A DNA stretch of 64,000 bases from Nonlabens ulvanivorans (lineage in GTDB: Bacteria; Bacteroidota; Bacteroidia; Flavobacteriales; Flavobacteriaceae): the NCBI RefSeq assembly GCF_000732625.1, contig NZ_JPJI01000032.1, forward strand, positions 682,001 through 746,000, read 5' to 3'. Below are positions 2,228 through 61,004 of the stretch, in pieces. Numbering within the stretch: the first letter of the stretch is position 1; every line of letters begins with the position of its first letter. The notes below the pieces were generated by a model. The model was not told the origin of the DNA, did not search any database, and was given only the letters and a program-made list of their open reading frames with translations. Position numbers and translations under genes: made by a program.

Positions 2228-3432
2228 TGGGAAGAAAGAGTTTGTTATTTACGATTTTGTTTTTGAGTTTCGCTTTCGCGAAAGCGCAGTCAGAAAAAGC
2301 ACAGCTAGAAGCTAAAAAGGCAAGGATACAGGCCGAAATCAATCAGTTCTCAAGGTTACTTTCTAATGTTAAGAAAGAAAGTAAAACGATGGTATTGCTC
2401 GTGGAGACTATCGACAAAAAAATAGCCAGCACCCAAGAATTAATAAACATTACAAATAAACAGGCTAATTTAATCACGCGCAGTATTAAGAAAAATACGG
2501 ACGAGAATACCAAGCTCAAAAAAGAAATCAAAACTCAAAAAGAAGAATATGCTCGCATGATTGTCAAAGCATATAAATCAAAAAATGAGCAAAGTAGATT
2601 AATGTTCTTACTATCATCTGAAGATTTTTTACAGGCCTACAAAAGAGTACAGTACTTAAAATCATATGCAGATTATCGTAAAAAGCAGGCAGATGAAATC
2701 ACTGCTAAATCCATGCGACTAGAACAGATTAATAAAGACCTGCAAGAAGAAAAAAAGCAAAAGCAAGAGGTTTTAAAAATTAATAAACAACAACGTATTG
2801 CATTACAAAAAGATAAGCAAGAGCAAGAAAATTTACTAGCTGTTGTAAAACAAGACGAGAAGAAATACTCTAAAGAGATAAGAGAAGCCAGTAAAGAACG
2901 TGCGATAATTAATAGACAAATTCAAAAGCTTATTGAGGCCGATATCGCAGCGTCTAATAAAGGTAAAACCGGTGCGGTAAAAGGAAAGTTTTATTTATCA
3001 CCAGAGGCAAAAGTACTCGCAAATAACTTTAAGTCCAACAAGGGAAAATTGCCCTATCCAGTAGATGAGTTTATCATCTCAAGAAAATATGGTGATCAAC
3101 CACATCCTGTACTTGCCGGAATTAAAATTGCTTCCAATGGATTGCGATTTCAAGCGCCATCTAACTCACCAGCAAAAGCAATTTTTACTGGTGAAGTGGT
3201 AAGAGTGCAAAAGGCAGCAAACGGTATTTTATCTGTTTATATAAGACATGGTAATTACACGTCTGTCTATGGTAACTTAAAAAGTGTTGTCGTACAAAAA
3301 GGTGATCAAATTAAAACGGAAGACATTATAGGAACTGTTTTCACAGACAATTCTGGTGTAACAGAGCTACGTTTCGTACTTATGGAAGATAGCCACACAG
3401 TTGATCCTGCTGGGTGGTTATTGAGGTTTTAA
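2227..3432 (+). CDS. EnvC-like murein hydrolase activator (degenerate M23/LytM)
   Basis: 401 residues: signal peptide 1-20, long coiled coil about 25-245, C-terminal LytM domain about 275-400. The zinc ligands of active M23 peptidases are missing: the usual HLHF motif reads ELRF, and the first His/Asp pair is not recognisable, while the RHGNYTSVYGNL strand is kept. This is the EnvC/NlpD pattern, in which the domain activates an amidase instead of cutting peptidoglycan. A copy of the 16-bp palindrome encodes the AFAKA that forms the signal-peptidase site (A-K-A before Q21). Start fixed by the one-base overlap with the upstream stop. Confidence 0.88.
   Translation: MGRKSLLFTILFLSFAFAKAQSEKAQLEAKKARIQAEINQFSRLLSNVKKESKTMVLLVETIDKKIASTQELINITNKQANLITRSIKKNTDENTKLKKEIKTQKEEYARMIVKAYKSKNEQSRLMFLLSSEDFLQAYKRVQYLKSYADYRKKQADEITAKSMRLEQINKDLQEEKKQKQEVLKINKQQRIALQKDKQEQENLLAVVKQDEKKYSKEIREASKERAIINRQIQKLIEADIAASNKGKTGAVKGKFYLSPEAKVLANNFKSNKGKLPYPVDEFIISRKYGDQPHPVLAGIKIASNGLRFQAPSNSPAKAIFTGEVVRVQKAANGILSVYIRHGNYTSVYGNLKSVVVQKGDQIKTEDIIGTVFTDNSGVTELRFVLMEDSHTVDPAGWLLRF
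2271..2286. repeat. Iterated palindrome, exact copy 1
   Basis: CGCTTTCGCGAAAGCG inside the EnvC-like gene; encodes AFAKA at the signal-peptidase site. Confidence 0.95.
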
Positions 3433-3444
3433 TAACCTGATTTA

Positions 3445-3954
3445 CTACTCAAACAATGCTTTCAATTCTGTAGCGTCCTTTGCTTTCATTTTACCTGCAA
3501 GAACTAGGCTCAATTGCTTGCGACGCAATGCTGCATCGTATTTTGATTTCTCATCCTCGGTTTCTGGTAAAATAGCAGGTACTTGTACTGGACGACCGGT
3601 TTCATCCACAGCAACAAAGGTGTATATAGCCTCGTTTGCTTGGGTTTTTTCACCACTCTCACGATCTTCTATCCATACGTTCATATGAACTTCCATAGAT
3701 GATGTAAATGCTCTTGAAACCTTAGCCTCTATTGTCACAACACTTCCTAATGGCACCATTCTATTAAACGCGACATGATTTACAGATGCTGTTACAACGA
3801 TACGTCTGGAGTGTCTTCTCGCGGCAATACTGGCTGCACGGTCCATACGTGCTAGTAACTCACCACCAAATAGATTATTCAATGGGTTGGTCTCACTAGG
3901 CAAGACCATATCTGTAACAGTGGTAAAAGATTGTGAAGGCGTTTTGGCTTCCAT
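3445..3954 (-). CDS. Acyl-CoA thioesterase (hotdog fold, cytosolic type)
   Basis: 169 residues from the chosen start. The sequence has the hotdog thioesterase motif ETNPLNNLFGGELLARMD near the N-terminus, followed by the RHSRRIVVTASVNHVAF strand, as in the YciA/acyl-CoA hydrolase group that cleaves fatty acyl-CoA to free acid and CoA. A longer reading from 4041 adds 29 basic residues absent from the family and would place a good -7 box (3970-3977) inside the gene, so the ATG at 3954 is preferred. It stands alone, convergent with the EnvC-like gene. Confidence 0.87.
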   Translation of the reverse strand: MEAKTPSQSFTTVTDMVLPSETNPLNNLFGGELLARMDRAASIAARRHSRRIVVTASVNHVAFNRMVPLGSVVTIEAKVSRAFTSSMEVHMNVWIEDRESGEKTQANEAIYTFVAVDETGRPVQVPAILPETEDEKSKYDAALRRKQLSLVLAGKMKAKDATELKALFE

Positions 3955-3969
3955 TTTAATAATTTTTTG

Positions 3970-3977
3970 CAAAGGTA
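3970..3977 (-). promoter_or_regulatory. Bacteroidota -7 box for the thioesterase gene
   Basis: On the minus strand the sequence reads TACCTTTG, matching TAnnTTTG, 16 bases before the ATG at 3954. No clear -33 TTG was found at 17-23 bases further upstream. Confidence 0.5.
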
Positions 3978-4035
3978 AGGTTGTACCTATTCTAAATAAT
4001 TTAAAAATTTCATTAATTTTTTTCTTTAAAACTTT

Positions 4036-4539
4036 ATGCATAGCTTTTGCAAAATTTTTAAAGTGAAAAAACTGACAATTATATTTTTATTGCTTTTAGG
4101 TAGTTTTTGTGTCGGGCAAGAAAATGAATCTTCAATAGGTCTGCATATAGGCTACCCAATAGATACTGAGGTATCACAATACAATTTTGGAATCTTTATA
4201 AATCCTATGTGGGAACTCTCAGAAGATAGTTACTTAGGTGGTTATCTAGGATTAAATTATATCGTTTTACAAACTGAAGATGCAGGTGGAGCAGAGTTAC
4301 CGCTTGCAGATTTTGGAGCTTCTTATAAATACTACTTTTTGGAGTTTGTTTATGCTCAAGTAAATGGAGGAATAAGTTATAATGGTCCCGAAGGTTTCTT
4401 TACAGTAACAGGATTTGCAAATCCCACTATAGGATATTCTTTTAATAAAACAAACGTGTTTGTAGGCTATCGCAAACTTTTCTTTAACGACGCTAACCTA
4501 GATAGTATAGAAGCTGGCATCTCATTTAAATTTTTCTAA
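4036..4539 (+). CDS. Small outer-membrane beta-barrel-like protein
   Basis: 167 residues from the ATG at 4036; an in-frame GTG at 4063 would give a shorter, more typical signal peptide (VKKLTIIFLLLLGSFCVGQ) and may be the true start. After the signal the chain alternates polar and hydrophobic residues with frequent Gly/Tyr/Phe, and ends in FKFF, the aromatic C-terminus typical of outer-membrane barrels. No enzyme motif. It is followed after one base by another secreted protein, so the two are probably co-transcribed. Confidence 0.7.
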   Translation: MHSFCKIFKVKKLTIIFLLLLGSFCVGQENESSIGLHIGYPIDTEVSQYNFGIFINPMWELSEDSYLGGYLGLNYIVLQTEDAGGAELPLADFGASYKYYFLEFVYAQVNGGISYNGPEGFFTVTGFANPTIGYSFNKTNVFVGYRKLFFNDANLDSIEAGISFKFF

Positions 4540-4540
4540 A

Positions 4541-6088: not shown

Positions 6089-6114
6089 GTAAAATCAATA
6101 AGTTGATATTAAAA

Positions 6115-6146
6115 AATCCTCATCTTTAAGATGAGGATTTTGTGTT
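6115..6146 (+). terminator. Rho-independent terminator after the 4541 gene
   Basis: Perfect inverted repeat AATCCTCATCT / AGATGAGGATT (6115-6139) with a 3-base loop, followed by TTGTGTTT. Confidence 0.8.
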
Positions 6147-6207
6147 TATAATATTTTTGAAACCGGTCTTAGATTGCCTTAGGCCTCGCTAAATTACTCT
6201 AATAGGT

Positions 6208-6779
6208 TTAGTTTTTGAAAATTAATAGCTGCTTTTTTTGTTCCCATTCCTCACGAGTCTGCTTATAAATGATAAAATCCTTCTCTGCAGGATAAGAACC
6301 ATAAACGGTCATTTGATTATTCAAAGCTACTTTTTGAGAACCTATATTATCTTTATGAATAACTGAGATAAGCGCATTACCAAAATCCTTATCATAACCC
6401 TTTTCAAATCCTATATTCTTAATAAATTGAGCTGCTTCACTGGTATATCCTTGCTGCCAGTATTCGGGTAAAATGGAGTAGCCTACTTCGAGTTGTTTGT
6501 ATTGTCAACATCTTGAACAAGCAGTCCAGCCTGACCTATCATTTTGCCCGTTTCTTTATGAATCAACACATTCATGCCACCGGATTGCTCTTCATAACGA
6601 GTGAGTGCTTTATCAAACCATTTTTCACAGCGTTGCTGCTGGTTGAAATTCTCATCCATAGAGAGATAAGTGCCTACTTCTGGAAAAGCAAAAAGTGGCA
6701 ACCATTCCTCAAAGTCATTTTCTTGCAGTAATCTAAAGGTTAACCGCTCGGTTTGTAAGTTGGGTAAGTGGTATTTCAT
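6208..6779 (-). pseudogene. GNAT acetyltransferase, frameshifted duplicate
   Basis: Read from ATG at 6779, the first part matches the upstream neighbour residue for residue (for example GGMNVLIHKETGKMIGQAG against GGLNALIDKTTGKMIGQCG) and then hits a TAG at 6485-6483. In the next frame the match resumes at LEVGYSILPEYWQQGY and continues to a TAA ending at 6208. Adding one A in the short A run at about 6496-6498 restores a 190-residue protein against 187 in the neighbour. It is therefore a tandem copy broken by a one-base loss, or a sequencing error. The start overlaps the neighbour's stop as TGATG. Confidence 0.82.
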
Positions 6780-8477: not shown

Positions 8478-8481
8478 ATGA

Positions 8482-8579: not shown

Positions 8580-8595
8580 CGCTTTCGCGAAAGCG
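8580..8595. repeat. Iterated palindrome, exact copy 2
   Basis: CGCTTTCGCGAAAGCG in the divergent gap between the HU/SPOR gene and pheS, outside the promoter boxes. Confidence 0.95.
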
Positions 8596-12044: not shown

Positions 12045-13124
12045 ATGAAAAAAATCTTTTTTTTAATAGTAGCTATAGTTTTAATTGCCTGTCAAGAAAC
12101 AGCAACAAAATCTGAAGAAGTTGTAATTCCTGAAACCCAAAAACAAACTAGTGAATTTGCCATAGTGATTCATGGTGGTGCAGGAACGATTAAAAAAGAG
12201 AACATGACACCAGAGCTGGAAAGACAGTATAACGATAAACTCACAGAAGCTGTAAAAGCAGGACATGATATTCTTAAAAATGGAGGCGATGCTATGGATG
12301 CTGTTGAGGCGAGCATACGCATCATGGAGGACTCGCCGTTATTCAACTCTGGAAAAGGAGCGGTATTTACACACGATGGTATCAACTCACTTGACGCTAG
12401 TTTTATGGATGGAAAAACACTTAATGCTGGTGCGGTCGCAGGTATTACTACGGTTAAAAACCCTATTTCGCTAGCCCGTAAAGTGATGACAGATTCTGAG
12501 CATGTGTTACTAAGTGGTAGTGGTGGAGACGCTTTCGCGAAAGCGTTACAAGATCCCAACATAGAGATTGTACCTAACAGTTATTTCTATACCGAGAACC
12601 GTTACCAGTCCTTGCAACGTGTTCTAAAAAGAGAAGCCGAAAAGGATGCGCAAAATGATAAAAAAGTAGCTCAGTTAGTACTAGAAGATCCATTTATCAA
12701 GGATTCTAAATACGGAACCGTAGGTTGTGTAGCGCTAGATAAAAATGGCAATATCGCTGCCGGAACTAGTACTGGCGGAATGACCAACAAGAAATATGGC
12801 CGCATAGGTGATTCACCCATTATAGGTAGTGGAACTTATGCAAATAATGCCACTTGCGGTGTCTCAAGCACTGGACATGGTGAGTATTTTATACGTGCGC
12901 AAGTCGCTTATGACATCAGCGCCATGATGGAATATAAAGGCATGACATTGAAAGAAGCAACTGATGCTGTGGTCCAGAAAAAGCTTGTCGATTTAGGCGG
13001 TACTGGCGGAATCGTAGCCTTAGATCATCTAGGGAACATATCCATGGAATTCAATACCGCAGGAATGTATCGTGCGACTATGAATGATAAGGATGAGTTA
13101 ATTGTAGGAATGTATAAGGAATAA
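12045..13124 (+). CDS. Isoaspartyl peptidase / L-asparaginase, lipoprotein form
   Basis: 359 residues. Lipobox LIAC gives an acylated Cys16. The rest is a plant-type Ntn-hydrolase that cleaves beta-aspartyl peptides or asparagine: HGGAG near the N-terminus, and the self-cleavage site with nucleophile Thr225 in SKYGTVG, followed by AAGTSTGG. Being exported and self-processing, it probably works in the periplasm on damaged peptides. A palindrome copy (12530-12545) encodes AFAKA at 163-167, before the cleavage site. Single gene. Confidence 0.93.
   Translation: MKKIFFLIVAIVLIACQETATKSEEVVIPETQKQTSEFAIVIHGGAGTIKKENMTPELERQYNDKLTEAVKAGHDILKNGGDAMDAVEASIRIMEDSPLFNSGKGAVFTHDGINSLDASFMDGKTLNAGAVAGITTVKNPISLARKVMTDSEHVLLSGSGGDAFAKALQDPNIEIVPNSYFYTENRYQSLQRVLKREAEKDAQNDKKVAQLVLEDPFIKDSKYGTVGCVALDKNGNIAAGTSTGGMTNKKYGRIGDSPIIGSGTYANNATCGVSSTGHGEYFIRAQVAYDISAMMEYKGMTLKEATDAVVQKKLVDLGGTGGIVALDHLGNISMEFNTAGMYRATMNDKDELIVGMYKE
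12530..12545. repeat. Iterated palindrome, exact copy 3
   Basis: In the isoaspartyl peptidase gene; encodes AFAKA. Confidence 0.95.
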
Positions 13125-15494: not shown

Positions 15495-16952
15495 ATGAAA
15501 GAGCTTATTTTGCTAATTGATAGTATGACTAATGAAGAAAGGTTGGCTTTCTACGCTTTCGCGAAAGCGAGAAATAGAAGATCTGACGTTAAAAACATTA
15601 AGCTTTTTCAGCTTATAGAAAATGGCGTGACTACTGATCTGGCAACCCGATTATATGGTGACGAGAATCAAAATGCACTCTATGCATTAACTAAAAGACT
15701 GCGTGACAATCTGATAGATTTTACTGCGTCGCACGGTCTAGAAACAGAAAGCGATGAAGAGATGCAACTATTAAAAAATCTACTAGCTTCAAGAATATTT
15801 TTTGAGAAAGGCCTGCATAAATTAGGCTTTAAAATTCTAAAAAAGGCAATTCAAAAGGCCCATAAACTTGAGTTATATGCGTTACTTAATGAAATGTACC
15901 ACACCTTATTACAACATGTTCATAAGAATCCATCAGTCCAGTTAGATCTAGTGGTTGAAGAGTACCAGAGTAACTTGAAAAACCAGCTTGCAGAGGCGCA
16001 TTTAATGACGGCCTATGCGTTTATAAAAGAAGATTTACAGACTGGTGATCAAGATGTAGAAGAAGTGATAGATCGTCATTTAAAAACCTATGGAATTAAG
16101 CTAAATGCCGCTTTTGGGTTTAAGTCTTTGTATACTTTAATGACCATCGCGGTAGAGACAGCTACTATAAAAAGTGATTATTACAGCGCAGCACACTTTA
16201 TGGAAGAGGCCTATCATATTGTAAATACTAAGAAAGACCTCGCTACACGTCATTTGTATTATCACATAGCTATTTTAAAGTTGATGAGTATGACATATTT
16301 CAGAAACAAAAACTTTGACAAAGCACAAGAGTTTTTAAGTTTAATGGGATCGCAATTAAAATTAGAGAATGGGAAATACATGAAAACGATGGGTGATGAT
16401 TATTATCATCTAAAAGCATTAATAGAGATTTATACTGGTGAGTTGGTAAATGGTATGAAGACTTTAAGTCATATCAATCACTCAACTCCAGAGAGCGAAT
16501 TGACTTCTATAATGGCGTATTTTCAAAAAGAAGATTATGCGAAGTGCAGTTTAATCATGCGCGGCCTTTCTCATAGCGATGACTTTTATGAAAAACGAGC
16601 AGGATTCAATTGGGTGATAAAACGCAATATCATAGAAATTCTCATTCTTATAGAACGTAACCAGCCTGATTTAGTAGAATCCAGAATGCGTAGTTTCAAT
16701 AAAAGATATCGCAAGAGATTAATAGAGAAGAAGGAAAAGCGAGTGCTTTCTTATCTCAAATTACTACGTTTATACTATGACACACCACATCAAGTAACTA
16801 CAGAAGCTTTCTATAACAAGGTAGAGAAATCATTTGACTGGATAGGAGCAGACAGAGAAGATATTTTTGTCATGAGTTTCTATGCATGGCTCAAAGCAAA
16901 GATGCAATCCAGGCCGCTATATGAAGTCACACTAGAGTTGACTAATCTATAA
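15495..16952 (+). CDS. Conserved helical hypothetical protein
   Basis: 485 residues, no signal peptide, predicted all-helical with TPR-like packing (for example FRNKNFDKAQEFLSLMG around 285). No catalytic motif and no family I can name; long helical proteins of this kind are found widely in Bacteroidota. A palindrome copy (15554-15569) encodes AFAKA at residues 21-25. Its stop abuts the stop of the convergent M23 gene with no gap and no visible terminator. Confidence 0.68.
   Translation: MKELILLIDSMTNEERLAFYAFAKARNRRSDVKNIKLFQLIENGVTTDLATRLYGDENQNALYALTKRLRDNLIDFTASHGLETESDEEMQLLKNLLASRIFFEKGLHKLGFKILKKAIQKAHKLELYALLNEMYHTLLQHVHKNPSVQLDLVVEEYQSNLKNQLAEAHLMTAYAFIKEDLQTGDQDVEEVIDRHLKTYGIKLNAAFGFKSLYTLMTIAVETATIKSDYYSAAHFMEEAYHIVNTKKDLATRHLYYHIAILKLMSMTYFRNKNFDKAQEFLSLMGSQLKLENGKYMKTMGDDYYHLKALIEIYTGELVNGMKTLSHINHSTPESELTSIMAYFQKEDYAKCSLIMRGLSHSDDFYEKRAGFNWVIKRNIIEILILIERNQPDLVESRMRSFNKRYRKRLIEKKEKRVLSYLKLLRLYYDTPHQVTTEAFYNKVEKSFDWIGADREDIFVMSFYAWLKAKMQSRPLYEVTLELTNL
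15554..15569. repeat. Iterated palindrome, exact copy 4
   Basis: In the helical hypothetical gene; encodes AFAKA near the N-terminus. Confidence 0.95.
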
Positions 16953-18620: not shown

Positions 18621-19988
18621 TTATGAAAATAAATATTTAATTAAATCTTCAATTTTTGAAAAAGCTTGTACATCGGTACCTACTTCTTTAAACTTTTGTT
18701 TTGCCGGTGCAATAAACACTTTCTCAAATCCTAGTTTTGCGGCTTCATTAACACGCTGTTCCATGCGTGAAACAGGTCTTATTTCTCCACCTAGACCTAC
18801 CTCTGCACTGAAACAATGTTGTGAAGAAAGTTCAATATCAAAGTTAGATGAAAGAATAGCGGCCACTACAGCAAGATCAATCGCTGGATCGTCTACAGTG
18901 ATACCACCCGTTATATTTAAGAATACATCTTTTTGGCCTAGTTTAAAGCCAGCTCTTTTTTCTAATACGGCTAGAATCATGTTGAGACGCTTTAAGTTAT
19001 ATCCTGTAGCACTACGTTGAGGTGTTCCATATACAGCCGTACTCACTAATGCTTGAACTTCTATCATTAAAGGACGCATACCTTCCATAGTGGCAGCGAT
19101 TGCAGTACCACTCAAACTAGTACCGCGTTGTGATATTAAGATTTCGCTAGGATTGATAACTTCACGTAAACCGTGACCCAACATTTCATAAATACCGATT
19201 TCATGTGTGCTTCCAAAGCGGTTTTTTAACGCGCGTAAAATTCTATAAGTATGATTGCGATCGCCTTCAAATTGCAATACTGTATCTACCATGTGCTCTA
19301 GTATTTTAGGTCCAGCGATGTTACCATCTTTAGTAATATGACCTATCAAAAGCACTGGTGTATTGGTCTCTTTGGCAAATTTTATAAGCTCGCTAGTACA
19401 TTCCCTGATTTGAGATACGCTACCAGCGGTACTTTCTATAATCTCGGTTTGCAGAGTTTGTATAGAATCTATAATAAGTACCTCAGGTTGCATTTCTGTA
19501 ATCTGACGGAAAATATTTTGAGTCTTAGTTTCAGTTAAAATGTAGCAGTTGGTCGCATCTTGTTTGATGCGATCTGCTCTCATTTTTATTTGCTGTGCAC
19601 TTTCTTCTCCACTTACATATAACGTCTTATAAGGTAAATTAAGGCAAACTTGAAGCAATAAAGTTGATTTACCTATTCCAGGTTCACCACCTAATAAGGT
19701 TACAGAGCCAGGTACTAGTCCACCACCTAATACTCTATTAAACTCTGCATTTGTTGTATCTAAACGTGGCGTTTCAGTCACATCTATTTGAGTGATAAGT
19801 TGTGGTTGTGGAGTACGCTTTCGCGAAAGCGTATCGCCGCTAGTAGCATCCCAAGAAGGTTTCTTTTCTTTTTGAACAACCTCTTCAACTAGTGTGTTCC
19901 ATTCCTTACACGTGGTACATTGTCCTTGCCAGCGTGCGTGTTGAGCGCCACAATTCTGGCAAAACCATGTTGTCTTTACTTTGGCCAT
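18621..19988 (-). CDS. radA: DNA repair protein RadA
   Basis: 455 residues, the usual length. Order: C4 zinc finger (C10, C13, C24, C27), RecA-like ATPase with Walker A GGEPGIGKST at about 100-109, the RadA signature KNRFGS, and a Lon-protease-like C-terminal domain. It drives branch migration in recombination. A palindrome copy (19816-19831) encodes TLSRKR in the linker between zinc finger and ATPase at about 53-58, a place where insertions should be tolerated. Abuts the esterase-like gene upstream with no gap. Confidence 0.98.
   Translation of the reverse strand: MAKVKTTWFCQNCGAQHARWQGQCTTCKEWNTLVEEVVQKEKKPSWDATSGDTLSRKRTPQPQLITQIDVTETPRLDTTNAEFNRVLGGGLVPGSVTLLGGEPGIGKSTLLLQVCLNLPYKTLYVSGEESAQQIKMRADRIKQDATNCYILTETKTQNIFRQITEMQPEVLIIDSIQTLQTEIIESTAGSVSQIRECTSELIKFAKETNTPVLLIGHITKDGNIAGPKILEHMVDTVLQFEGDRNHTYRILRALKNRFGSTHEIGIYEMLGHGLREVINPSEILISQRGTSLSGTAIAATMEGMRPLMIEVQALVSTAVYGTPQRSATGYNLKRLNMILAVLEKRAGFKLGQKDVFLNITGGITVDDPAIDLAVVAAILSSNFDIELSSQHCFSAEVGLGGEIRPVSRMEQRVNEAAKLGFEKVFIAPAKQKFKEVGTDVQAFSKIEDLIKYLFS
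19816..19831. repeat. Iterated palindrome, exact copy 5
   Basis: In radA, between zinc finger and ATPase; encodes TLSRKR. Confidence 0.95.
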
Positions 19989-21186: not shown

Positions 21187-22170
21187 TTATTTAGCCGAAA
21201 CACTATTTTTTATAGAAAGCATTACAAATGATACTATACCGTAAACTAGAACTAGTACTGTTTGTGAGGTCCACAGGATCCAACCTAGTGACGTTCCTAA
21301 GGTGTCTGCCACGTCAAATAGCAAAAGGACCTGTGCTATAAAATAGGGATAAGCACCAAAACCGCCGTTTGTAAACGCGACGGCAAAACTACCTGCTACG
21401 AATGCACTTAAAATTCCGCTAATAGGTATAGAGGTTGTGCCTGGAATGGCAAAAATACTGACGTAAAACATTAATAAATACATGGTCCATATAAATAATG
21501 TATGAGCTAGGTAAAGCCATTTTTGCTGCATGGTCCATATCGTATTAAAACCATCTTTAAGACCGCTGATAAAGTTTTTTAGTTTTTGAAATGGTTTTAT
21601 GTATCTAAATAATACAACTACAATGACGGTAAAGATTAGCGCAATTATTCCATAGATAATAATTGTTGAAGATTCTGCTTTCGCGAAAGCAGTATTTAAA
21701 CGTTCTTTAAAGAAGTCAATGATAACAGTGCCTGACACTAATAAAGCGGTAGCTGTGATGATTAATAGAATAATAAAATCGAGAACACGCTCTGCTATTA
21801 TAGTACCTATAGCTTTATCTACTGGTACGTTATCTACTCTATTTACAACAACTGCACGAGCTACTTCACCACTGCGAGGTATTATTAAATTCATAGCATA
21901 TCCTGTGCCAATAGCCATCACATTAGTAAGAAAAGCTGGTTGATGCCCTATTGCTTTAAGCATATAGTTCCATCGCCATGCTCTAGATAGGTGACTCAAA
22001 AAGGATAGTGAAACTCCTAGAACAATCCAGCTATAGTTTGCATCAATCAAATAAGATTTTATCTCTTCAATTTGATTTTCAGTAAACTGAGTGTAAGAGA
22101 TATAAATTAAAAATATACCTAGCGCAAGCGGTAATACTATTTTTAATGCTTTGAGAGATGCTTTTTTCAA
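21187..22170 (-). CDS. Flippase-like membrane protein (LPG synthase TM / UPF0104 family)
   Basis: 327 residues with about eight membrane helices. The sequence SFLSHLSRAWRWNYML and a Gly-rich stretch FTNGGFGAYPYFIAQ fit the lysylphosphatidylglycerol-synthase transmembrane family, whose stand-alone members are thought to move lipids. The soluble aminoacyl-transferase domain of MprF is absent. It follows panD by 6 bases, so it belongs to the panC-panD transcript. A 14-bp core of the palindrome (21676-21691) encodes AFAKA in a loop. Confidence 0.83.
   Translation of the reverse strand: MKKASLKALKIVLPLALGIFLIYISYTQFTENQIEEIKSYLIDANYSWIVLGVSLSFLSHLSRAWRWNYMLKAIGHQPAFLTNVMAIGTGYAMNLIIPRSGEVARAVVVNRVDNVPVDKAIGTIIAERVLDFIILLIITATALLVSGTVIIDFFKERLNTAFAKAESSTIIIYGIIALIFTVIVVVLFRYIKPFQKLKNFISGLKDGFNTIWTMQQKWLYLAHTLFIWTMYLLMFYVSIFAIPGTTSIPISGILSAFVAGSFAVAFTNGGFGAYPYFIAQVLLLFDVADTLGTSLGWILWTSQTVLVLVYGIVSFVMLSIKNSVSAK
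21676..21691. repeat. Iterated palindrome, near copy (14-bp core)
   Basis: TGCTTTCGCGAAAGCA: still a perfect palindrome, with outer C/G changed to T/A on both sides. In the flippase-like gene; encodes AFAKA. Confidence 0.88.
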
Positions 22171-27851: not shown

Positions 27852-27867
27852 CGCTTTCGCGTAAGCG
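27852..27867. repeat. Iterated palindrome, near copy (one mismatch)
   Basis: CGCTTTCGCGTAAGCG, between the glmS terminator and the atpD promoter. Confidence 0.85.
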
Positions 27868-30607: not shown

Positions 30608-31732
30608 ATGCTACCAGATAAACTCATACGCAAACTAGGCATGCGACACTTCTCAGGAAATATGCGCAGACTTAAATCGCACAACAATCTTATAGATTTT
30701 GCATCTAATGATTACCTGGGTTTTTCAAAAATCCCTATGGTTGAGGAGTCTACCTTACTACATGGCGCCACCGGTTCTAGATTGTTATCTGGACATAGTA
30801 AAGCATTTGATACATTAGAAAATCGTATCGCTCATTTTCATAAATCAGAAAATGCACTCATTTTTAACTCTGGTTATGACGCAAATCTAGGTTTAATAAG
30901 TAGTGTTGCGCAGCGTGGCGATTTAATTTTATATGATGAGTTAGTACATGCCAGTATTAGGGATGGTATTCAACTTTCGATGGCACGTTCCCTTAAATTT
31001 CGACATAATGATATTGATCACTTAAAAATATTACTAGATAAATTCGGAAAAGGTGAACAACTAGAGGTTTATGTGATCACTGAATCTGTTTTTTCAATGG
31101 ATGGTGATCAAGCACCACTAGAAGAATTAACTCAGCTTACTAAAAAAATGAATAATGCTTATCTTATTGTTGATGAGGCACACGCTTTAGGTGTTATAGG
31201 TCATAATGGTGAAGGTCTCGTACAGTATTTAGGATTAGAAGATCAAGTTTTTGCTAGGGTTGTGACATATGGTAAGGCGTTAGGTTGTCATGGTGCTTCC
31301 ATATTAGGTAGTAGTGATTTAGTACAATACTTGATTAATTTTTGTCGCACATTCATTTATACCACAGCATTACCGCCACATGCTCTTTTAACTATTAATG
31401 CTGGTTATGAGCATCTCGAGAATCAGCATGTACATATAAAAAAATTACAAATTTTAATACAGCAGTTCAATAAACTAGTGGTGCAAAGTGGATTGCGATT
31501 ACGCTTTCGCGAAAGCGAGACCGCCATACAAGTTTGTATTATACCAGGTAACAAGAATGTAAGAAAAGTGGCTGGTCAATTGCAACACAAAGGATATGAT
31601 GTAAGAGCCATTTTATCACCTACTGTACCAGAAGGTCAAGAGCGATTAAGGTTATGTCTACATAGTTATAACACTATTGATGACTGTGAATATGTCCTTG
31701 AAACCATTGCAAAATCTCTGAAAAAGAAATGA
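30608..31732 (+). CDS. bioF: 8-amino-7-oxononanoate synthase
   Basis: 374 residues. PLP enzyme that joins pimeloyl thioester and alanine in biotin synthesis. The PLP Lys is K223 (VTYGKALGCHGA); DEAH (189-192) and FNSGYDANLG are conserved. First gene of a packed operon: it overlaps the next gene by ATGA. A palindrome copy (31502-31517) encodes RFRES near residue 300, in the C-terminal domain. Confidence 0.95.
   Translation: MLPDKLIRKLGMRHFSGNMRRLKSHNNLIDFASNDYLGFSKIPMVEESTLLHGATGSRLLSGHSKAFDTLENRIAHFHKSENALIFNSGYDANLGLISSVAQRGDLILYDELVHASIRDGIQLSMARSLKFRHNDIDHLKILLDKFGKGEQLEVYVITESVFSMDGDQAPLEELTQLTKKMNNAYLIVDEAHALGVIGHNGEGLVQYLGLEDQVFARVVTYGKALGCHGASILGSSDLVQYLINFCRTFIYTTALPPHALLTINAGYEHLENQHVHIKKLQILIQQFNKLVVQSGLRLRFRESETAIQVCIIPGNKNVRKVAGQLQHKGYDVRAILSPTVPEGQERLRLCLHSYNTIDDCEYVLETIAKSLKKK
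31502..31517. repeat. Iterated palindrome, exact copy 6
   Basis: In bioF; encodes RFRES. Confidence 0.95.
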
Positions 31733-34107: not shown

Positions 34108-35238
34108 TTGAAAAACCCAATTTATATTAACGGATCTGGTGTGGTATCACCATTATCTTCCGCAGGTTTTAGTAGTGATTCTTCTGCTATTTTAGTTTCC
34201 GGTAATGATCTTGTTGCGCCTATTAGCGATTTACATGATGTTAGAATAAAAGAACTTCAGGCAGAATCTAAATGGTATAGTCAATTAGATCGATCTGTTT
34301 TATTGGCCATTTTAGCCGCTAGAGAATTTAAAGTTCCTGTAGGTAAGATAGGAATCAATATAGGTTCTTCTCGCGGTGCTACTCGTGTCTGGGAAGAAAG
34401 TTATACACGCTTTCGCGAAAGCGGAATAGCAACAACACAATCCTCTCCATTAACCACATTAGGAAATATATCTACATGGATAGCACAAGACCTAGGAGTG
34501 GACGCTACTGCGTTTTCACATTCTATAACCTGTGCTACGGCATCACATGCAGTACTTAATGCTATCGCATGGATAGAAAGTGATATGGTAGATCAATTTA
34601 TAGTAGGTGGATCAGAAGCTCCTTTAACGCCGTTTACCATAGCGCAAATGAAAGCGTTACGTATTTATGCCACTCAAGAAAGTGCTTATCCTTGTAAAGC
34701 ATTAGATTTAGACAAGACTGGTAATACTATGGTATTGGGAGAAGCTGCTGCTTGTTATTTGCTTTCTAGAAAAGTTACTGAAAATACACAGGCAAAAATA
34801 ATAGGTTACGGAGCAGCTATTGAAAAATTGAGTAGTGCAACATCAGTTTCTATGAATGGTCTGTGTTTACAAGAGTCCATGAAACGAGCGATGGGTGATA
34901 TAGCTCTAGAAGAAGTTGATGCAATTGTCACGCACTCACCAGGTACCATAAAGGGTGATATGGCTGAGTTTGCTGCAATACAAGAGGTTTTTGGAGATGA
35001 CTATCCAACATTGTGTAATAATAAATGGCAGTTAGGTCATTCACTAGGTGCTAGTAGTGCGTTAAGTATAGCTATGGCGCTTGAAATGTTTGATAAATCA
35101 ACCTTATTTACTATTCCTTACTTAGAATCTACCTTTACAAATCCTAGAGGCAAAGAGGTGAATCCACAAAAAATATTGATTAATGCAACAGGTTTTGGCG
35201 GTAATGCGGTGAGCCTATTGTTAGAAAAACATATATAA
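34108..35238 (+). CDS. Beta-ketoacyl-ACP synthase in the biotin operon
   Basis: 376 residues from a TTG start; no nearby ATG exists and the chain begins with the family strand YINGSGVVSPL. KAS I/II fold with catalytic Cys142 (SITCATASHA), His276 (THSPGTIKGD) and His311 (LGHSLGAS), so it should be active, though about 30 residues shorter than FabF. Placed between bioA and bioB, it may help build the pimeloyl precursor in place of a visible bioC/bioH pair; this is inference. A palindrome copy (34408-34423) encodes RFRES at 101-105. Confidence 0.87.
   Translation: MKNPIYINGSGVVSPLSSAGFSSDSSAILVSGNDLVAPISDLHDVRIKELQAESKWYSQLDRSVLLAILAAREFKVPVGKIGINIGSSRGATRVWEESYTRFRESGIATTQSSPLTTLGNISTWIAQDLGVDATAFSHSITCATASHAVLNAIAWIESDMVDQFIVGGSEAPLTPFTIAQMKALRIYATQESAYPCKALDLDKTGNTMVLGEAAACYLLSRKVTENTQAKIIGYGAAIEKLSSATSVSMNGLCLQESMKRAMGDIALEEVDAIVTHSPGTIKGDMAEFAAIQEVFGDDYPTLCNNKWQLGHSLGASSALSIAMALEMFDKSTLFTIPYLESTFTNPRGKEVNPQKILINATGFGGNAVSLLLEKHI
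34408..34423. repeat. Iterated palindrome, exact copy 7
   Basis: In the biotin-operon KAS gene; encodes RFRES. Confidence 0.95.
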
Positions 35239-37332: not shown

Positions 37333-37795
37333 GCTCTTTTACCTTATCATACACTAAATCTCCTTCCCAACCTCTGTATAAAAGATAGTCGGCTAGTTTC
37401 TTACGTTTGCGATATTTATCTTTTTCACTATGTAGTTGTTCATAACGCTTTCGCGAAAGCGTATCAAATGAAACCTCATATTCTTCAGGAGTAATTTCTT
37501 GTAAAGCAATTTTGATATTACGTTCTCCTATTTTGCGCAATTTGAGTTCGCGTATAATTCTATTACGTCCCCAATGTTTATAGCGAAATTTTCCTCTCGC
37601 ATAGCTTTGAGAGAAACGAGTTTCGTTTAAAAAATTATGCTGTATCAGATGTGGTATGATTTCATCTATCGCGAGTTGAATCATTCCCATCTTACGCAAT
37701 TTATCTTCTACCTCTTTATGACAGCGTTCTTGATAGACACAATAGCGTTCTATAGCACGAGTGGCTTGTTCAACGGTAAAAGTTTCTTGTTGCAT
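37322..37795 (-). CDS. recX: Regulatory protein RecX
   Basis: 157 residues. Three-helix repeat protein that modulates RecA. Conserved segments: RYCVYQERCHKEVEDKL, FLNETRFSQSYARGKFR, WGRNRIIRELKLRKI. A palindrome copy (37446-37461) encodes TLSRKR in the third repeat. No recA nearby. It overlaps the end of the JmjC gene and has its own -7 box. Confidence 0.92.
   Translation of the reverse strand: MQQETFTVEQATRAIERYCVYQERCHKEVEDKLRKMGMIQLAIDEIIPHLIQHNFLNETRFSQSYARGKFRYKHWGRNRIIRELKLRKIGERNIKIALQEITPEEYEVSFDTLSRKRYEQLHSEKDKYRKRKKLADYLLYRGWEGDLVYDKVKELIS
37446..37461. repeat. Iterated palindrome, exact copy 8
   Basis: In recX; encodes TLSRKR. Confidence 0.95.
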
Positions 37796-40218: not shown

Positions 40219-41265
40219 ATGAGTTTTCACCAACTACTTATAAAATGGTATGAAATACATAAAAGAGACTTACCATGGCGCGCTACTCAAGACCCTTATC
40301 GCATCTGGCTTAGTGAGGTTATATTACAGCAAACTCGTGTAAATCAAGGCTTACCATATTACGAGAATTTTGTTAATACCTATCCTACGGTTTATCAATT
40401 AGCCGCTGCTCCACAAGAAAATGTACTCAAATTATGGCAAGGATTGGGCTATTATTCTCGGGCTAGGAATTTACATATGGCAGCTCAACAGGTAGTTGAT
40501 ATGGGTGGTTTGTTCCCAGATTCTTATAAAGAGCTATTGAAATTAAAAGGTGTGGGCGATTATACAGCAGCAGCTATTGCAAGTTTTGCATATAAAGAGG
40601 TCGTCCCAGTGGTAGATGGTAATGTGTATAGGGTCTTATCTAGAATATATGGTATAAGTACTCCTATTAATGAGAGTGCTGGTATAAAAGAGTTTAAAAA
40701 ATTAGCGTCTCAGTTGATAGATCATAATCAGCCAGATGTATATAATCAGGCAATTATGGAATTTGGTGCATTACAATGTTTGCCTAGAAATCCTGACTGT
40801 GCTACTTGTCCATTTAGCGATGATTGTATCGCTTTAAGTGATAATCGTATTGATGAATTGCCTGTAAAAATTAAAAAGGCAAAAGTAAAAAATTTACATC
40901 ACCATTATATAGTACTACAAACACCTCAGGATAATACGATGCTTCAAGAGCGTCCGCAATCCGGTATCTGGGCAGGTTTGTTTGAGTTTCCCTTTATAGA
41001 AAGCGATGGAGCTCTATTATCAGTAGAATTTAGAGATAAACTACAACAACAGGAATGGTGGTCAGGATTCCGCTTTCGCGAAAGCGTATATAATCAAGAT
41101 CCCATTATCCACAAGCTATCGCATCGCAAGATTCATGCTTATTTCTGGATTGTTGAAATAGATCAAGAAATTGAAAATGGGATTACTATTCAACAAGCAT
41201 TTCAAAAACCACTACATATTTTAATGCATCGTTTTATGAGTTCGTTCTGGAATTCTTATCTTTAA
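40219..41265 (+). CDS. mutY: A/G-specific adenine glycosylase
   Basis: 348 residues. It removes adenine paired with 8-oxoguanine. Catalytic E33 (SEVILQQTR), helix-hairpin-helix LKGVGDYTAAAI with D133, 4Fe-4S ligands C187, C194, C197 and C203, and a C-terminal NUDIX-like domain that reads 8-oxoG. A palindrome copy (41071-41086) encodes RFRES in that last domain. It heads the mutY-ssb-gldE-gldD run. Confidence 0.96.
   Translation: MSFHQLLIKWYEIHKRDLPWRATQDPYRIWLSEVILQQTRVNQGLPYYENFVNTYPTVYQLAAAPQENVLKLWQGLGYYSRARNLHMAAQQVVDMGGLFPDSYKELLKLKGVGDYTAAAIASFAYKEVVPVVDGNVYRVLSRIYGISTPINESAGIKEFKKLASQLIDHNQPDVYNQAIMEFGALQCLPRNPDCATCPFSDDCIALSDNRIDELPVKIKKAKVKNLHHHYIVLQTPQDNTMLQERPQSGIWAGLFEFPFIESDGALLSVEFRDKLQQQEWWSGFRFRESVYNQDPIIHKLSHRKIHAYFWIVEIDQEIENGITIQQAFQKPLHILMHRFMSSFWNSYL
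41071..41086. repeat. Iterated palindrome, exact copy 9
   Basis: In mutY, NUDIX-like domain; encodes RFRES. Confidence 0.95.
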
Positions 41266-44698: not shown

Positions 44699-44714
44699 CG
44701 CTTTCGCGAAAGCG
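44699..44714. repeat. Iterated palindrome, exact copy 10
   Basis: Between the EamA terminator and the end of the M16 gene (convergent). Confidence 0.95.
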
Positions 44715-49206: not shown

Positions 49207-49222
49207 CGCTTTCGCGAAAGCG
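49207..49222. repeat. Iterated palindrome, exact copy 11
   Basis: 14 bases upstream of the -33 box of the rplU promoter. Confidence 0.95.
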
Positions 49223-51083: not shown

Positions 51084-51099
51084 CGCTTTCGCAAAAGCG
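51084..51099. repeat. Iterated palindrome, near copy (one mismatch)
   Basis: CGCTTTCGCAAAAGCG, upstream of the 71-residue protein gene. Confidence 0.85.
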
Positions 51100-54874: not shown

Positions 54875-55386
54875 TTTTATATGGACCAGAAAGCACTGGT
54901 AAGAGTACGCTTTCGCGAAAGCTAGCTCAACATTACAATACTGTCTTAATAGAAGAATTTGCTAGAGAATATCTGCAGGATAAATTTAACCATACTGGAG
55001 AAGTTTGTAGTTATGACGATATCTTACCTATTGCAATAGGTCAAAGAAATCTAGAAAACAAAGCAGTAAATAAAGCTCAGGATTATCTTTTTTGTGATAC
55101 AGATGTGTTAGAAACCTATGTGTATTGCATGGCATATTTCAATCAGGCGCCGCAAGAACTTATAAATGCTGTGGAAGAATCATCATATGAGTTATATTTA
55201 CTATTACAAGTAGACGTTCCATGGACTCCAGATGATTTGCGAGACCGGCCAGAACGTCGAGAAGAAATGTTTGAGTTGTTTCTAGCGGCACTCAATAAGT
55301 TTAATAAGCCTTATAAAATCGTGGATGGGTTAGATTCTCAAAGATTTGAAAATGCAATAAAGGCGATAGAAAATGAGTCTAAATGA
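54829..55386 (+). CDS. NadR-type ribosylnicotinamide kinase (AAA ATPase)
   Basis: 185 residues. P-loop GPESTGKS at 19-26, EEFAREYL, FCDTDVLETYVY and RDRPERREEM follow the C-terminal kinase domain of NadR. It would trap imported nicotinamide riboside as NMN. A near-exact palindrome (54908-54923, 15 of 16 bases) encodes TLSRKL directly after the P-loop Ser, the most conserved location among the copies. Overlaps pnuC by 46 bases and the next gene by 4. Confidence 0.9.
   Translation: MEKIPQQAAYSGKRIVLYGPESTGKSTLSRKLAQHYNTVLIEEFAREYLQDKFNHTGEVCSYDDILPIAIGQRNLENKAVNKAQDYLFCDTDVLETYVYCMAYFNQAPQELINAVEESSYELYLLLQVDVPWTPDDLRDRPERREEMFELFLAALNKFNKPYKIVDGLDSQRFENAIKAIENESK
54908..54923. repeat. Iterated palindrome, near copy (one mismatch)
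   Basis: CGCTTTCGCGAAAGCT in the NadR-type kinase gene; encodes TLSRKL. Confidence 0.88.
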
Positions 55387-58068: not shown

Positions 58069-58076
58069 TACCTTTG
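58069..58076 (+). promoter_or_regulatory. -7 box of the dikinase-like gene
   Basis: TACCTTTG, 15 bases before ATG 58092. It contains the TTG at 58074 that would otherwise be a possible start codon. Confidence 0.5.
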
Positions 58077-58091
58077 AGTAAAACCAGCTAC

Positions 58092-61004
58092 ATGTTTATT
58101 AAATACTTTTATTTATTACTGTTATTTCCAGTTTTTTTATGGGGTCAACAATATGATGATGAAAAAATAACGAGCCTCATAGATACTTATAAGGATTTAG
58201 ATCGTGGTCCCTATAAAGAGATTAATTGGTTTTGCGAAGACGGAACAATTAGAGATGCAAAAGATCCATGTCCTGATGCCATAGGTGGTGGAATTCAACA
58301 TGCTAGTTATAAATCAGATATCATAAACCTAGCCAAAACTAGACACCTTTATTTAGGTGAAATACTAGCCTCAAACGATGTATGGGACTTTTGGGATGCT
58401 CCTTTCAACCACAGTAGAATAAAGCAATATCAATTACAGCGTTATTTAGAAAGCGTAGATAATGGATGGATTCAAGAAAAATCAAAATTTTATCGTGGTG
58501 CCAGGCAAATCGAAGACGAGGAAGAATGGGGACGCAAGTTTTACTATACTATTCTCTCTAGTAACCAGATTTTAGATCAAGACTTTTTTTTAATTAGAGA
58601 AAGCCTAAGAGATATACCACATGATGGAGATACTAATCTAGCTCAAGAGATCAGAAGCACTAGTAAAGTAATAGCAGACAAGTATCCTAAATTTATGGAT
58701 ATCAGGATTAAAATACATGGTAATCCAGAGTCTAGAGATATCCAACAGGTTCAAGAGTGGTATGATGCTAATAAATCTGACTTGAATGAGCAAACGCTGG
58801 CTGATTTCCAAAAACTTATAACTGACATGAAAGAGTTTTTTGAACCAGTAAGCATTAGTGAACTTGCACAAATGGTTTCTGATTGGGATAATGACAGTTA
58901 TATTAAAATGCAAACAGATTGGTTCTCTATGACCTATGCCCAAGAGACAGATCCTTCTATAATCATAACAGCAGCATCAGGATTGATGTGCGATATACGC
59001 TATAATATTCAAGAAGATAGAAGAGGAACCAGACGTACCAGTGCATTAGAACTTAGTTTACGACTAGAAGAATTGATATTTCAGAAGTCATCACAATGGA
59101 ATCCTGCAACAATAAGAGAACATATAGATAAAGTACATGCGCTCAGCGAGGCATTGGCTAGCTCTGGTTATGTAGAGAAATGGGAATGGGATGCCGTTGA
59201 GGATCAGTTACTGTTAAGTACTGATGCAACTATGACAGCAAACCGGTTGATGGATTTCATAAACGTAGCTCGCAATCAGGTCGCTTGGGGAACAGGTATG
59301 GTCAACAGTATTTATGGAGATGTTGTAGAGGAATATACCGGTTTTGAACCATTATCTTATGGATTTTATGATGACCGTATACGCAGTTCATTACTATTAC
59401 CTCTAGGTTCCTCAATAGGTGAGTTTTCTGGTTTAATCTCAAGACAGTTAGGTAGTTCAACTTACATTCCAGTACTGAGTAATATTAGTACTGTAAGAGG
59501 TCTTAATCCAGGATATACTCAAGGAGAATTAGTAGTCGTAACAGGTAATGCAGAAGGAATGACTGTAGACCCTAAAAAAATATATGTGTTTGACCATCCA
59601 CCTAGCGATTTAAAACCAGTCGCTGGTATCGCTACAGTATCAGAAGGTAATCTAGTTTCTCACGTTCAATTACTAGCGCGCAACTTGGGAATTCCTAATA
59701 GTGCCATCAGTGCAGATAATCTTTCAGACCTTAAGGATTATAATGGTAAACAGGTGTTTTATGCCGTAAGTGATCGTGGTGCAGTGGTTATAAAACCTGC
59801 AAACGAGATGGATAACGAAGAGCAATCATTATTCAATAAGAATCAACAGAAAGAGAAGAAAACCATCCGCATCTCTGAAGAAAAATTGAAGCTAGACATC
59901 GTTGAGCCCGTAGATATGGCTAGTGTTAATAGCGCAGACAGTGGAGTTTTATGTGGTCCTAAAGCTGCTAATCTTGGTCAATTGAAGCAGTTATTTCCTG
60001 ATCATGTTGTAAATGGTGTTATAATTCCTTTTGGAGTTTTTAGAAATCACATGTCTCAAAATATGCCTGAAACAGATGGTAGTTATTGGGATTTTCTGGA
60101 GTCCGCTTTCGCGAAAGCGAGACAATTAAAAGATAGTGGGTCCTCTACAGCAGATGTAGAAAAGTATCAATTGGATCAACTTGCGATTCTGAGGGAAGCC
60201 ATAGCTAGAATGCCTATTAAAGCAGAATTTATAAAAGAGTTAAAAAAGGATTTCAAAGGAATTCTAGGGGACGATATGGGTAAAGTTCCAGTTTTTTTAA
60301 GGAGTGATACAAACATGGAGGATCTCGAGGAATTTACCGGTGCAGGTTTAAACCTGACCGTTTTTAATGTGGTGAGCGAAGAAAAAATATTAAAAGGAAT
60401 AAGAGATGTGTGGGCTAGTCCTTATACAGACCGTAGTTTTAAATGGCGACAGGCATATCTAGAAAATCCAGAAAATGTATATCCATCTATTTTAATAATC
60501 CCAACAGTAGATGTGGATTATAGTGGTGTGTTGATTACTAAAGATTTTGTTCATCAAAATGCTGATGGTATCACGATTGCAATGAGTCGTGGCGCCGGTG
60601 GAGCGGTAGATGGGCAAAGTGCAGAAACTTTTATAGTCGATGGACAAGGAAATAGTCAACTAGTTGCACCGGCAAGAGAACGCTTGCAGCGTAAATTACC
60701 TGTTCAAGGTGGTTCTAAAATGGAATTTGTCAACTTTAATAATCCTATTATTACTGAAGATAATCTTAAGGAAATACGGCAGTTTGCCTTAAAGGCACAT
60801 CAAACCATGCCTAGTTCTAAAGATGGGTCCTATAATGGGGCATGGGATATTGAGTTAGGCTTTAAGGATAATAAATTATACCTATTTCAAATACGTCCAT
60901 TTGTGGAGAATAGTAATGCTATAACTAACTCTTATTTATTGAAATTGGATCAGAAAACAGACTATAATACTGAGTTACTTATTAATAAACAAATCGCATT
61001 ATAA
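58092..61004 (+). CDS. Secreted glucan, water dikinase-like protein (swivel + ATP-grasp)
   Basis: 970 residues from ATG 58092. Signal peptide (FIKYFYLLLLFPVFLWG), an unknown N-terminal half (about 20-450), a phosphohistidine swivel domain with the likely phospho-His524 (GNLVSHVQLLARNLGIPN), then a PPDK-type ATP-grasp (LCGPKAANLG about 620; LRSDTNMEDLEEFTGAG about 737; VWASPYTDRSF; end LFQIRPF). PEP synthases have ATP-grasp first; this order and FRSDxNxEDLxxxxGAG match glucan or phosphoglucan, water dikinases. Export of such an ATP-using enzyme is odd. A palindrome copy encodes AFAKA. One-base overlap with the next gene. Confidence 0.83.
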   Translation: MFIKYFYLLLLFPVFLWGQQYDDEKITSLIDTYKDLDRGPYKEINWFCEDGTIRDAKDPCPDAIGGGIQHASYKSDIINLAKTRHLYLGEILASNDVWDFWDAPFNHSRIKQYQLQRYLESVDNGWIQEKSKFYRGARQIEDEEEWGRKFYYTILSSNQILDQDFFLIRESLRDIPHDGDTNLAQEIRSTSKVIADKYPKFMDIRIKIHGNPESRDIQQVQEWYDANKSDLNEQTLADFQKLITDMKEFFEPVSISELAQMVSDWDNDSYIKMQTDWFSMTYAQETDPSIIITAASGLMCDIRYNIQEDRRGTRRTSALELSLRLEELIFQKSSQWNPATIREHIDKVHALSEALASSGYVEKWEWDAVEDQLLLSTDATMTANRLMDFINVARNQVAWGTGMVNSIYGDVVEEYTGFEPLSYGFYDDRIRSSLLLPLGSSIGEFSGLISRQLGSSTYIPVLSNISTVRGLNPGYTQGELVVVTGNAEGMTVDPKKIYVFDHPPSDLKPVAGIATVSEGNLVSHVQLLARNLGIPNSAISADNLSDLKDYNGKQVFYAVSDRGAVVIKPANEMDNEEQSLFNKNQQKEKKTIRISEEKLKLDIVEPVDMASVNSADSGVLCGPKAANLGQLKQLFPDHVVNGVIIPFGVFRNHMSQNMPETDGSYWDFLESAFAKARQLKDSGSSTADVEKYQLDQLAILREAIARMPIKAEFIKELKKDFKGILGDDMGKVPVFLRSDTNMEDLEEFTGAGLNLTVFNVVSEEKILKGIRDVWASPYTDRSFKWRQAYLENPENVYPSILIIPTVDVDYSGVLITKDFVHQNADGITIAMSRGAGGAVDGQSAETFIVDGQGNSQLVAPARERLQRKLPVQGGSKMEFVNFNNPIITEDNLKEIRQFALKAHQTMPSSKDGSYNGAWDIELGFKDNKLYLFQIRPFVENSNAITNSYLLKLDQKTDYNTELLINKQIAL
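60104..60119. repeat. Iterated palindrome, exact copy 12
   Basis: In the dikinase-like gene; encodes AFAKA between swivel and ATP-grasp motifs. Confidence 0.95.

Follow-up and report, generated by a model that had tools for sequence, protein, structure and literature searches.

What keeps a 16-bp palindrome, CGCTTTCGCGAAAGCG, recurring every few kilobases along the genome of Nonlabens ulvanivorans? The question arises from a stretch of 64,000 nucleotides of this member of the Flavobacteriaceae (contig NZ_JPJI01000032.1, positions 682,001 to 746,000; hereafter the window; G+C content 35.5%), in which a scan allowing up to two mismatches gave 16 matches between positions 2271 and 60119. These comprise 12 exact copies, three with one mismatch and one with two, the last being TGCTTTCGCGAAAGCA, in which the palindrome is retained; 100 dinucleotide shuffles of the window gave a mean of 0.00 matches (maximum 0). 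Eleven copies lie within open reading frames (ORFs), where all three frames are used (giving AFAKA, RFRES or LSRKR), and five lie in gaps, and both the count and this split are those given by the initial annotation, which was made from the letters of the window. The analysis below describes a two-fold symmetric element of about 50 bp that, within our samples, is restricted to Nonlabens and to Dokdonia with its sister in the RadA tree. The reading ranked first, to which we tentatively give a probability of about 0.4, is that the element serves throughout the genome as an uptake-type signal by which the cell's own DNA is recognized, and its main rival is the site of a nucleoid protein.

The whole N. 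ulvanivorans genome (3.21 Mb in 45 contigs) contains 436 exact copies of the 16-mer and 566 of the 14-mer that forms its core, against Markov expectations (order 1-5, motif masked, models trained on 464 kb of the same genome) of 6e-6 to 1e-4 and 2e-4 to 5e-3, respectively, and 0 copies of the reversed control word. The initial annotation had taken the iteration to be genome-wide and not due to chance, and 436 copies against an expectation of at most 1e-4 bear this out; neither of the contrary outcomes that it had named beforehand, near-Markov counts or absence outside the window, was found. The copies in the window, with their surroundings, are the following:

2271..2286, exact copy, in ORF 2227-3432 (+), AFAKA
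8580..8595, exact copy, intergenic, the only motif copy to score as terminator-like (12 such sites in all within 2000-21999, the 20 kb searched for them)
12530..12545, exact copy, in ORF 12045-13124 (+), AFAKA
15554..15569, exact copy, in ORF 15495-16952 (+), AFAKA
19816..19831, exact copy, in radA, ORF 18621-19988 (-), LSRKR
19799..19848, example of the full element of about 50 bp, core and two arms, around the radA copy
21676..21691, near copy with two compensating mismatches (T...A), in ORF 21187-22170 (-), AFAKA
27852..27867, near copy (A11 to T), intergenic
31502..31517, exact copy, in ORF 30608-31732 (+), RFRES
34408..34423, exact copy, in ORF 34108-35238 (+), RFRES
37446..37461, exact copy, in ORF 37322-37795 (-), LSRKR
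41071..41086, exact copy, in ORF 40219-41265 (+), RFRES
44699..44714, exact copy, intergenic
49207..49222, exact copy, intergenic
51084..51099, near copy (G10 to A), intergenic
54908..54923, near copy (G16 to T, 14-bp core unbroken), in ORF 54829-55386 (+)
60104..60119, exact copy, in ORF 58074-61004 (+), AFAKA

Distribution among bacteria

Exact copies were present in all 23 Nonlabens genomes available, at 180-737 per genome. In a sample of 299 Flavobacteriaceae genomes (sampled genomes and loci carry the handles G and L), 38 had any exact copy and 291 had at most four; the five with at least 153 copies were three Nonlabens genomes, G227 and G211, while G072, G097 and G307 had 11-13 copies and 30 genomes had 1-4. 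Outside Nonlabens and G227, the 14-mer reached at most 16 copies in a sample of the order and 6 in a sample of the phylum (395 genomes each, overlapping). Among 80 named RadA loci, the exact 16-mer was found in all ten belonging to the Nonlabens clade, in all five labelled Dokdonia and in none of the 65 others. The RadA encoded in the window shares 99% identity with that of N. ulvanivorans JCM 19298. The RadA of G227 is the same as that of Dokdonia sinensis, and in the RadA tree G211, the one genome representing its genus, groups as sister to Dokdonia; this single-gene tree separates Nonlabens from Dokdonia plus G211, and well-supported branches force two changes. Within these samples the motif is confined to Nonlabens, Dokdonia and the RadA sister of Dokdonia, at densities of 128-248 cores per Mb.

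A screen for other iterated palindromes found none with three dispersed copies in 34 stretches (of at least 15 kb, six of an initial 40 having been left out as too short) from other genomes, the motif itself being detected in 7 of 7 motif-bearing stretches as a control, and no comparable iterated word was among the top repeats of the 65 RadA loci of other organisms; an A/T-rich palindrome in L145 consists of two copies 200 bp apart. Searches of the literature did not return the 12-mer core among the matches listed, and nothing relevant was among the matches listed for palindromes together with Flavobacteri-, Nonlabens or Dokdonia, or for uptake sequences. The element thus appears to be a new form of a known kind, the iterated signal. 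Two observations on the sampled loci are recorded here: a dispersed repeat containing AGCGGCATGGGCTAAAGCC has four copies in the 20 kb of L236 (G357:C1:1-20000), and the RadA encoded on the contig of L113, from a metagenome-assembled genome labelled Candidatus Nitrotoga, branches within Flavobacterium, which is probably a binning error.

Core, arms, spacing and conservation

The strict part of the element is the 14-bp core GCTTTCGCGAAAGC, with an outer C/G preferred. In 848 kb of Nonlabens DNA (a pool that includes orthologous stretches, so that copies are partly non-independent), 171 exact 16-mers stand beside 46, 8 and 9 copies at one, two and three mismatches, whereas 20 shuffled palindromes averaged 0, 0, 0.1 and 3.7 at zero, one, two and three mismatches in the same DNA. 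Deviations are concentrated, with 38 of the 46 one-mismatch copies differing at positions 1, 16, 6 or 11. For the 14-mer, exact copies exceed those with one mismatch in G000 (87 vs 18), G006 (97 vs 10), Dokdonia (37 vs 7) and G211 (59 vs 27); the outer pair is weaker in G211, where the 16-mer has 22 exact copies vs 38 with one mismatch and the excess of perfect copies holds for the 14-mer only.

On both sides of the core lie arms that, followed away from it in the 5' to 3' direction of either strand, are poor in G and enriched in A and C between +2 and about +18; this pattern, which peaks at +3, +4, +7, +10 and +13, is alike in G000, G006 and Dokdonia. In the example around the radA copy, the arms (17 nt each, +3 to +19) together contain 13 C and 4 G. 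The excess of C over G is 2.5 per arm at 77 intergenic sites and 2.75 at 143 genic sites, and in each class the asymmetry lies beyond all 5000 sign flips. A built-in negative control is provided by copies without arms, namely seven in G+C-rich viral contigs (C 0.30, G 0.30), which are probably due to chance, and 12 conserved copies in Flavobacterium (C 0.14, G 0.22). Since the arms reach about +18 on both sides, the full element is about 50 bp long and two-fold symmetric, a core with mirror-image arms; the "16-mer" of the initial annotation was rightly seen as a palindrome and its extent was underestimated. A conserved near copy downstream of radA was also seen at L118:12893 and at 16 other Flavobacterium loci (one mismatch in 12, two in 5), where it perhaps represents merely the codons of a conserved peptide.

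Copies typically occur once per about 3-4.5 kb and are evenly placed. The 15 intervals in the window have a coefficient of variation (CV) of 0.33, and none of 20,000 uniform placements was equally even. In wider sequence the CV was 0.40 for G000 (84 intervals), 0.46 for G006 (one N-rich stretch dropped), 0.52 for Dokdonia and 0.60 for G211, each below all 5000 uniform placements (null means 0.86-0.89), and pairs closer than 1 kb numbered 0, 5, 3 and 2 in G000, G006, G211 and Dokdonia vs null means of 18.4, 23.6, 12.7 and 9.6, respectively. Over 484 kb of one G001 contig (first 94 sites listed), gaps of up to 34 kb bring the CV to a value no lower than chance would give (P 0.11); the same stretch has two intervals below 1 kb vs 16.5 expected, counting exact copies only. 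In this genome, G001:C4:297970-352821 has exact copies only at 297970, 332468 and 352821, together with one of the three PF00437 ATPase genes that scored above cut-off (336408-337520), and is possibly a recent island. In G006, taking the parS position as the origin, no origin-to-terminus gradient was detected (density vs distance from parS, Spearman 0.008, P 0.97, 19 stretches), with 51 sites in the nine origin-half stretches and 53 in the ten terminus-half stretches. Genes hold 65 of 104 G006 sites where 91% of the sequence is coding, the other 39, an excess, falling in the about 9% that is intergenic, and 16 of 37 sites in a small Dokdonia sample (simple ORF calls in both). The 65 genic sites of G006 (stretches L177-L196) comprise 37 in the AFAKA frame and 14 in each of the other two.

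Orthologous positions were compared within Nonlabens, dropping alignments that did not span the site by 20 bases; the comparisons are non-independent. Where flanks were 70-75% identical, all 16 bases were the same in 117 of 266 site comparisons vs 1 of 262 random positions, and at 75-80% flank identity in 104 of 192 vs 1 of 412. These figures are conservative, because alignment slips account for many of the sites scored as changed. Of 21 genomes (window counted), 19 have an exact radA site at the same codons and the other two have 3 and 7 mismatches, and the neighbouring codons vary between genomes. Similarly, the site at 12530..12545 is exact in eight of 11 aligned genomes (window counted) and has one mismatch in three, the site at 15554..15569 is exact in three of six and has one mismatch in three, and the site at 21676..21691 is exact in 12 of 19, with one mismatch in two, two in four and twelve in one. 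The copies are kept by selection. A pair of conserved sites about 700 bp apart near radA in L088-L093 is an exception to the spacing, and arises because the gene that intervenes in the window (19989-21203) was not found in that clade (G006, G009, G001, G002, G015, G016, nor G014, for which the stretch is short); G016 is without the radA site. Relocation of the site in this clade was considered and rejected, as a codon alignment shows the same site in those members that align.

Proposed roles: self-DNA signal or chromosome architecture

In the reading that we place first, the palindrome of 14-16 bp and the G-poor arms on either side of it would together mark the cell's own DNA, as the uptake signals of Pasteurellaceae and Neisseriaceae do. 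A two-fold symmetric DNA-binding protein, located at the cell surface or taking part in uptake or recombination, would read the element of about 50 bp, DNA bearing it would be preferentially taken up or incorporated, and preferential recombination together with selection would keep perfect copies, remove imperfect ones and space the copies a few kb apart. As copies occur every few kb, most fragments would carry one. We infer the existence of the reader, its action in DNA uptake and the mechanism of drive. Like uptake signal sequences (USS) and DNA uptake sequences (DUS), the element has hundreds of perfect copies that outnumber single mismatches, is evenly spaced, lies in genes and gaps and has flanking segments. 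The available part of PMC1626085 describes the sharp consensus of USS and DUS as a puzzling attribute, unlike relaxed regulatory sites, and mentions flanking segments 2 and 3 of USS; significant even spacing of both is cited in the available part of PMC1939737. The flat density along the G006 chromosome also counts for this reading. An uptake-like signal had been among the candidates of the initial annotation, and the sharp consensus, spacing and flanking segments now favour that candidate, while the scarcity of the usual pilus ATPase does not.

Several observations weigh against this reading. The core is palindromic and unoriented with mirror arms, whereas USS and DUS are non-palindromic according to the available part of PMC1939737. 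The arms are A/C-rich on both sides instead of A/T-rich. USS and DUS are also denser than the 128-248 cores per Mb found here. The type II/IV secretion-pilus ATPase family PF00437, the sole pilus gene family searched, scored above cut-off in 2 of 10 motif-bearing and 1 of 14 other genomes, and a type IV pilus receptor was rejected as the reader on account of this scarcity in carriers. The element is not classed as a USS or DUS, two of the features tested, an oriented core and pilus machinery, being absent and scarce, respectively. In G211 weak arms accompany a less sharp signal, with 59 exact cores but also 32 at two mismatches, and the conservation of individual orthologous sites suggests strong per-site constraint, not weak drive alone. 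The 16-mer is also present in 41 stretches of a viral collection, and as many as 6 copies in 37 kb were seen in phage-like contigs (identified by genes for terminase, portal, head or tail), one of which has an integrase; phage-like contigs carry copies with arms. A point in favour, in contrast, comes from two isolated phages of Nonlabens, P12024S and P12024L (each of 35.6 kb), which have 0 copies even at three mismatches, where about 8 would be expected at Nonlabens density; no integrase is annotated in either, and both are presumably lytic.

Transformation in the wider group bears on the same question. According to the available part of PMC8459023, four of the eight genes essential for transformation of Riemerella anatipestifer encode ComEC, DprA, ComF and RecA; the products of the other four have no relation to known machinery, and one of these is a DUF5689 protein with a predicted fimbrial location. 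All 10 motif-bearing genomes tested contained the DUF5689 family, and machinery of the R. anatipestifer type may be available in motif carriers; adding to the points against, the family was also found in 13 of 14 genomes with few copies or none. As it occurs in nearly all genomes (23 of 24), the distribution of the motif is not explained by DUF5689, which was rejected as the specific reader; the part of its alignment inspected by eye showed no feature exclusive to carriers. Riemerella columbina prefers its own DNA, which suits the uptake reading, and the words of up to 10 bp among those listed in the available part of PMC7965970 are all A/T-rich; self-preference there is therefore not explained by such a motif, as far as that part goes, a further difficulty, as is our finding no literature that links Nonlabens or Dokdonia with natural transformation. 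A search for the reader by unusual similarity of 730 Nonlabens ORFs to DNA of Dokdonia or G211, over the genome parts compared, gave nothing, and the reader protein was not found. The more specific proposal of a pilus-independent self-DNA recognition system in Bacteroidota, whose new dimeric receptor or processing protein moved between Nonlabens and the lineages of Dokdonia and its sister, is a doubtful one.

The chief alternative, possible though on balance improbable, is that the element is the site of a homodimeric nucleoid or architectural protein that anchors or loops DNA every few kb along the chromosome, independently of origin and terminus. The two-fold symmetry over about 50 bp, the even spacing with few pairs below 1 kb, the conservation at orthologous positions and the uniform density in G006 would all suit such a protein. 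The consensus, however, is sharper than is usual for these proteins (171 exact copies vs 46 and 8 at one and two mismatches in Nonlabens), exact copies are lacking over as much as 34 kb in G001 (near copies uncounted), and no candidate protein was found. ParB_N occurs in 24 of 24 genomes regardless of the motif; in 20 of these, with one match or more each, no extra copy was peculiar to carriers (a second type of 616 aa, present in G006 and G018, is shared by G122 and G241), and ParB/Noc was rejected as the reader. The sites of parS and Noc are 16-bp palindromes with a TTTC...GAAA frame, which the element resembles; it differs in that TTTC is offset by one base and in its hundreds of uniformly spread copies, with neither enrichment at the origin nor avoidance of the terminus in G006. 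Canonical parS was found once, separate from the motif, in 8 of 8 Nonlabens genomes tested, and no exact 16-mer parS turned up in G227, in G211 or in 13 of the 14 other genomes. The motif is not parS in Nonlabens; of the nucleoid or segregation-protein site that the initial annotation had also offered, the parS, Noc or MatP type is weakened, given the separate parS and the flat density in G006.

Self-DNA signals this sharp are not known outside two families of Proteobacteria, both with type IV pili. A palindromic and symmetrically armed form in marine Flavobacteriaceae would mean either that self-DNA recognition evolved independently of the pilus or, alternatively, that a chromosome-wide architectural protein has an unusually strict and evenly spaced site; on either reading, one oligonucleotide should identify the reader.

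A Chi-type hotspot of recombination or repair, with an AddAB- or RecBCD-like reader for which the palindrome would be active from both sides, is unlikely. Chi sites are short, asymmetric and oriented and occur every few kb genome-wide. The element shares this last property, with one uniformly placed copy per 3-4.5 kb, and its absence from the two isolated phages also suits such a role; it differs in being palindromic and long and in its symmetric arms, and the asymmetric, strand-read feature was not found. A signal read on one strand should allow enrichment of the half-site, and the lack of clear enrichment of GCGAAAGC outside the motif (18 vs 15.1 expected in the 848 kb of Nonlabens) therefore counts against Chi, as do the symmetric arms and the core, long and strict as it is, which indicate recognition of duplex DNA.

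Still less credible is a palindrome maintained through DNA methylation, by an orphan methyltransferase together with mismatch or repair bias, in the manner of highly iterated palindrome 1 (HIP1, GCGATCGC) of cyanobacteria; a methylation site had been another candidate of the initial annotation. The element behaves like HIP1 in being a palindrome iterated genome-wide in genes and gaps, and HIP1 has been linked to methyltransferases in the available part of PMC4390886. Outside the motif, TCGCGA occurs at 0.94 and CGCG at 0.73 of expectation in Nonlabens, so that no shorter sub-site is favoured, and TCGCGA, neither enriched nor avoided, gave no sign of restriction-site avoidance. The arms extend to +18, and the core is longer than the usual sites of methyltransferases. 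As the initial annotation had held, the element resembles HIP1 without being HIP1: the word is different and longer, the arms are long, the host belongs to the Flavobacteriaceae and the density is lower than that of HIP1.

A structural signal in single-stranded DNA, in which the 3' half of each strand, CGCGAAAGCG, would form a mini-hairpin with a GAAA loop that the palindrome gives to both strands, is very improbable. The 38 of the 46 one-mismatch copies noted above fit it, positions 6 and 11 being the N of a GNRA-like loop and 1 and 16 the stem end, as do the predicted folds (-2.0 kcal/mol for CGCGAAAGCG, -4.3 for the whole 16-mer). Against it, there is no clear enrichment of single hairpin halves, and the z-scores of the folds, -0.2 to -1.6, are modest. 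One-mismatch copies, moreover, never deviate at the R of the loop (position 12, or 5 on the other strand), the deviations in G211 spread over more positions, and a symmetric protein site predicts the same tolerance. A mobile repeat similar to repetitive extragenic palindromes and their associated tyrosine transposases (REP/RAYT), or an intrinsic terminator, for which the high copy number, the terminator-like score of copy 8580 and the commoner small gaps near sites (gaps of any size in 80 of 622 alignments vs 43 of 1088 controls, many of them slips beside the masked site) could be cited, is already contradicted as a general explanation by the genic, conserved copies: Nonlabens copies are mostly genic, no insertion of a repeat unit relative to orthologues or 16-bp loss opposite the site beyond controls was seen (gaps of at least 10 bases in 4 of 622 vs 7 of 1088), and, in agreement with the initial annotation, the arms have no T tract and no hairpin with a T tract stands at gene ends save at 8580, the sole exception in the 20 kb scanned.

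Copies in metal-resistance islands

In many motif-poor genera the few copies present occur clustered. Those of L016, the locus scanned for gene content, lie in a metal-resistance island with genes for an RND pump, an outer-membrane efflux protein, a multicopper oxidase, P-type ATPases and a CusB-like protein, and at several other loci the flanks or ORF sizes match this island. The copies in the 14 loci of this kind have arms (25 distinct sites, C 0.24, G 0.11). As these copies are armed, island DNA in motif-poor genera most likely came from motif-rich hosts, and copies with G-poor arms could serve as a practical tracer that marks DNA of these lineages in phages and metal-resistance islands.

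The island type (CusA-like pump and associated genes) recurs across L016-L026 in several motif-poor flavobacterial genera with copies at fixed offsets, including pairs of motifs 933 bp apart in G099, G108 and G122. In G097, ten of its 16 copies of the 14-mer are listed, and all ten lie within 44 kb (G097:C3:32331-76110).

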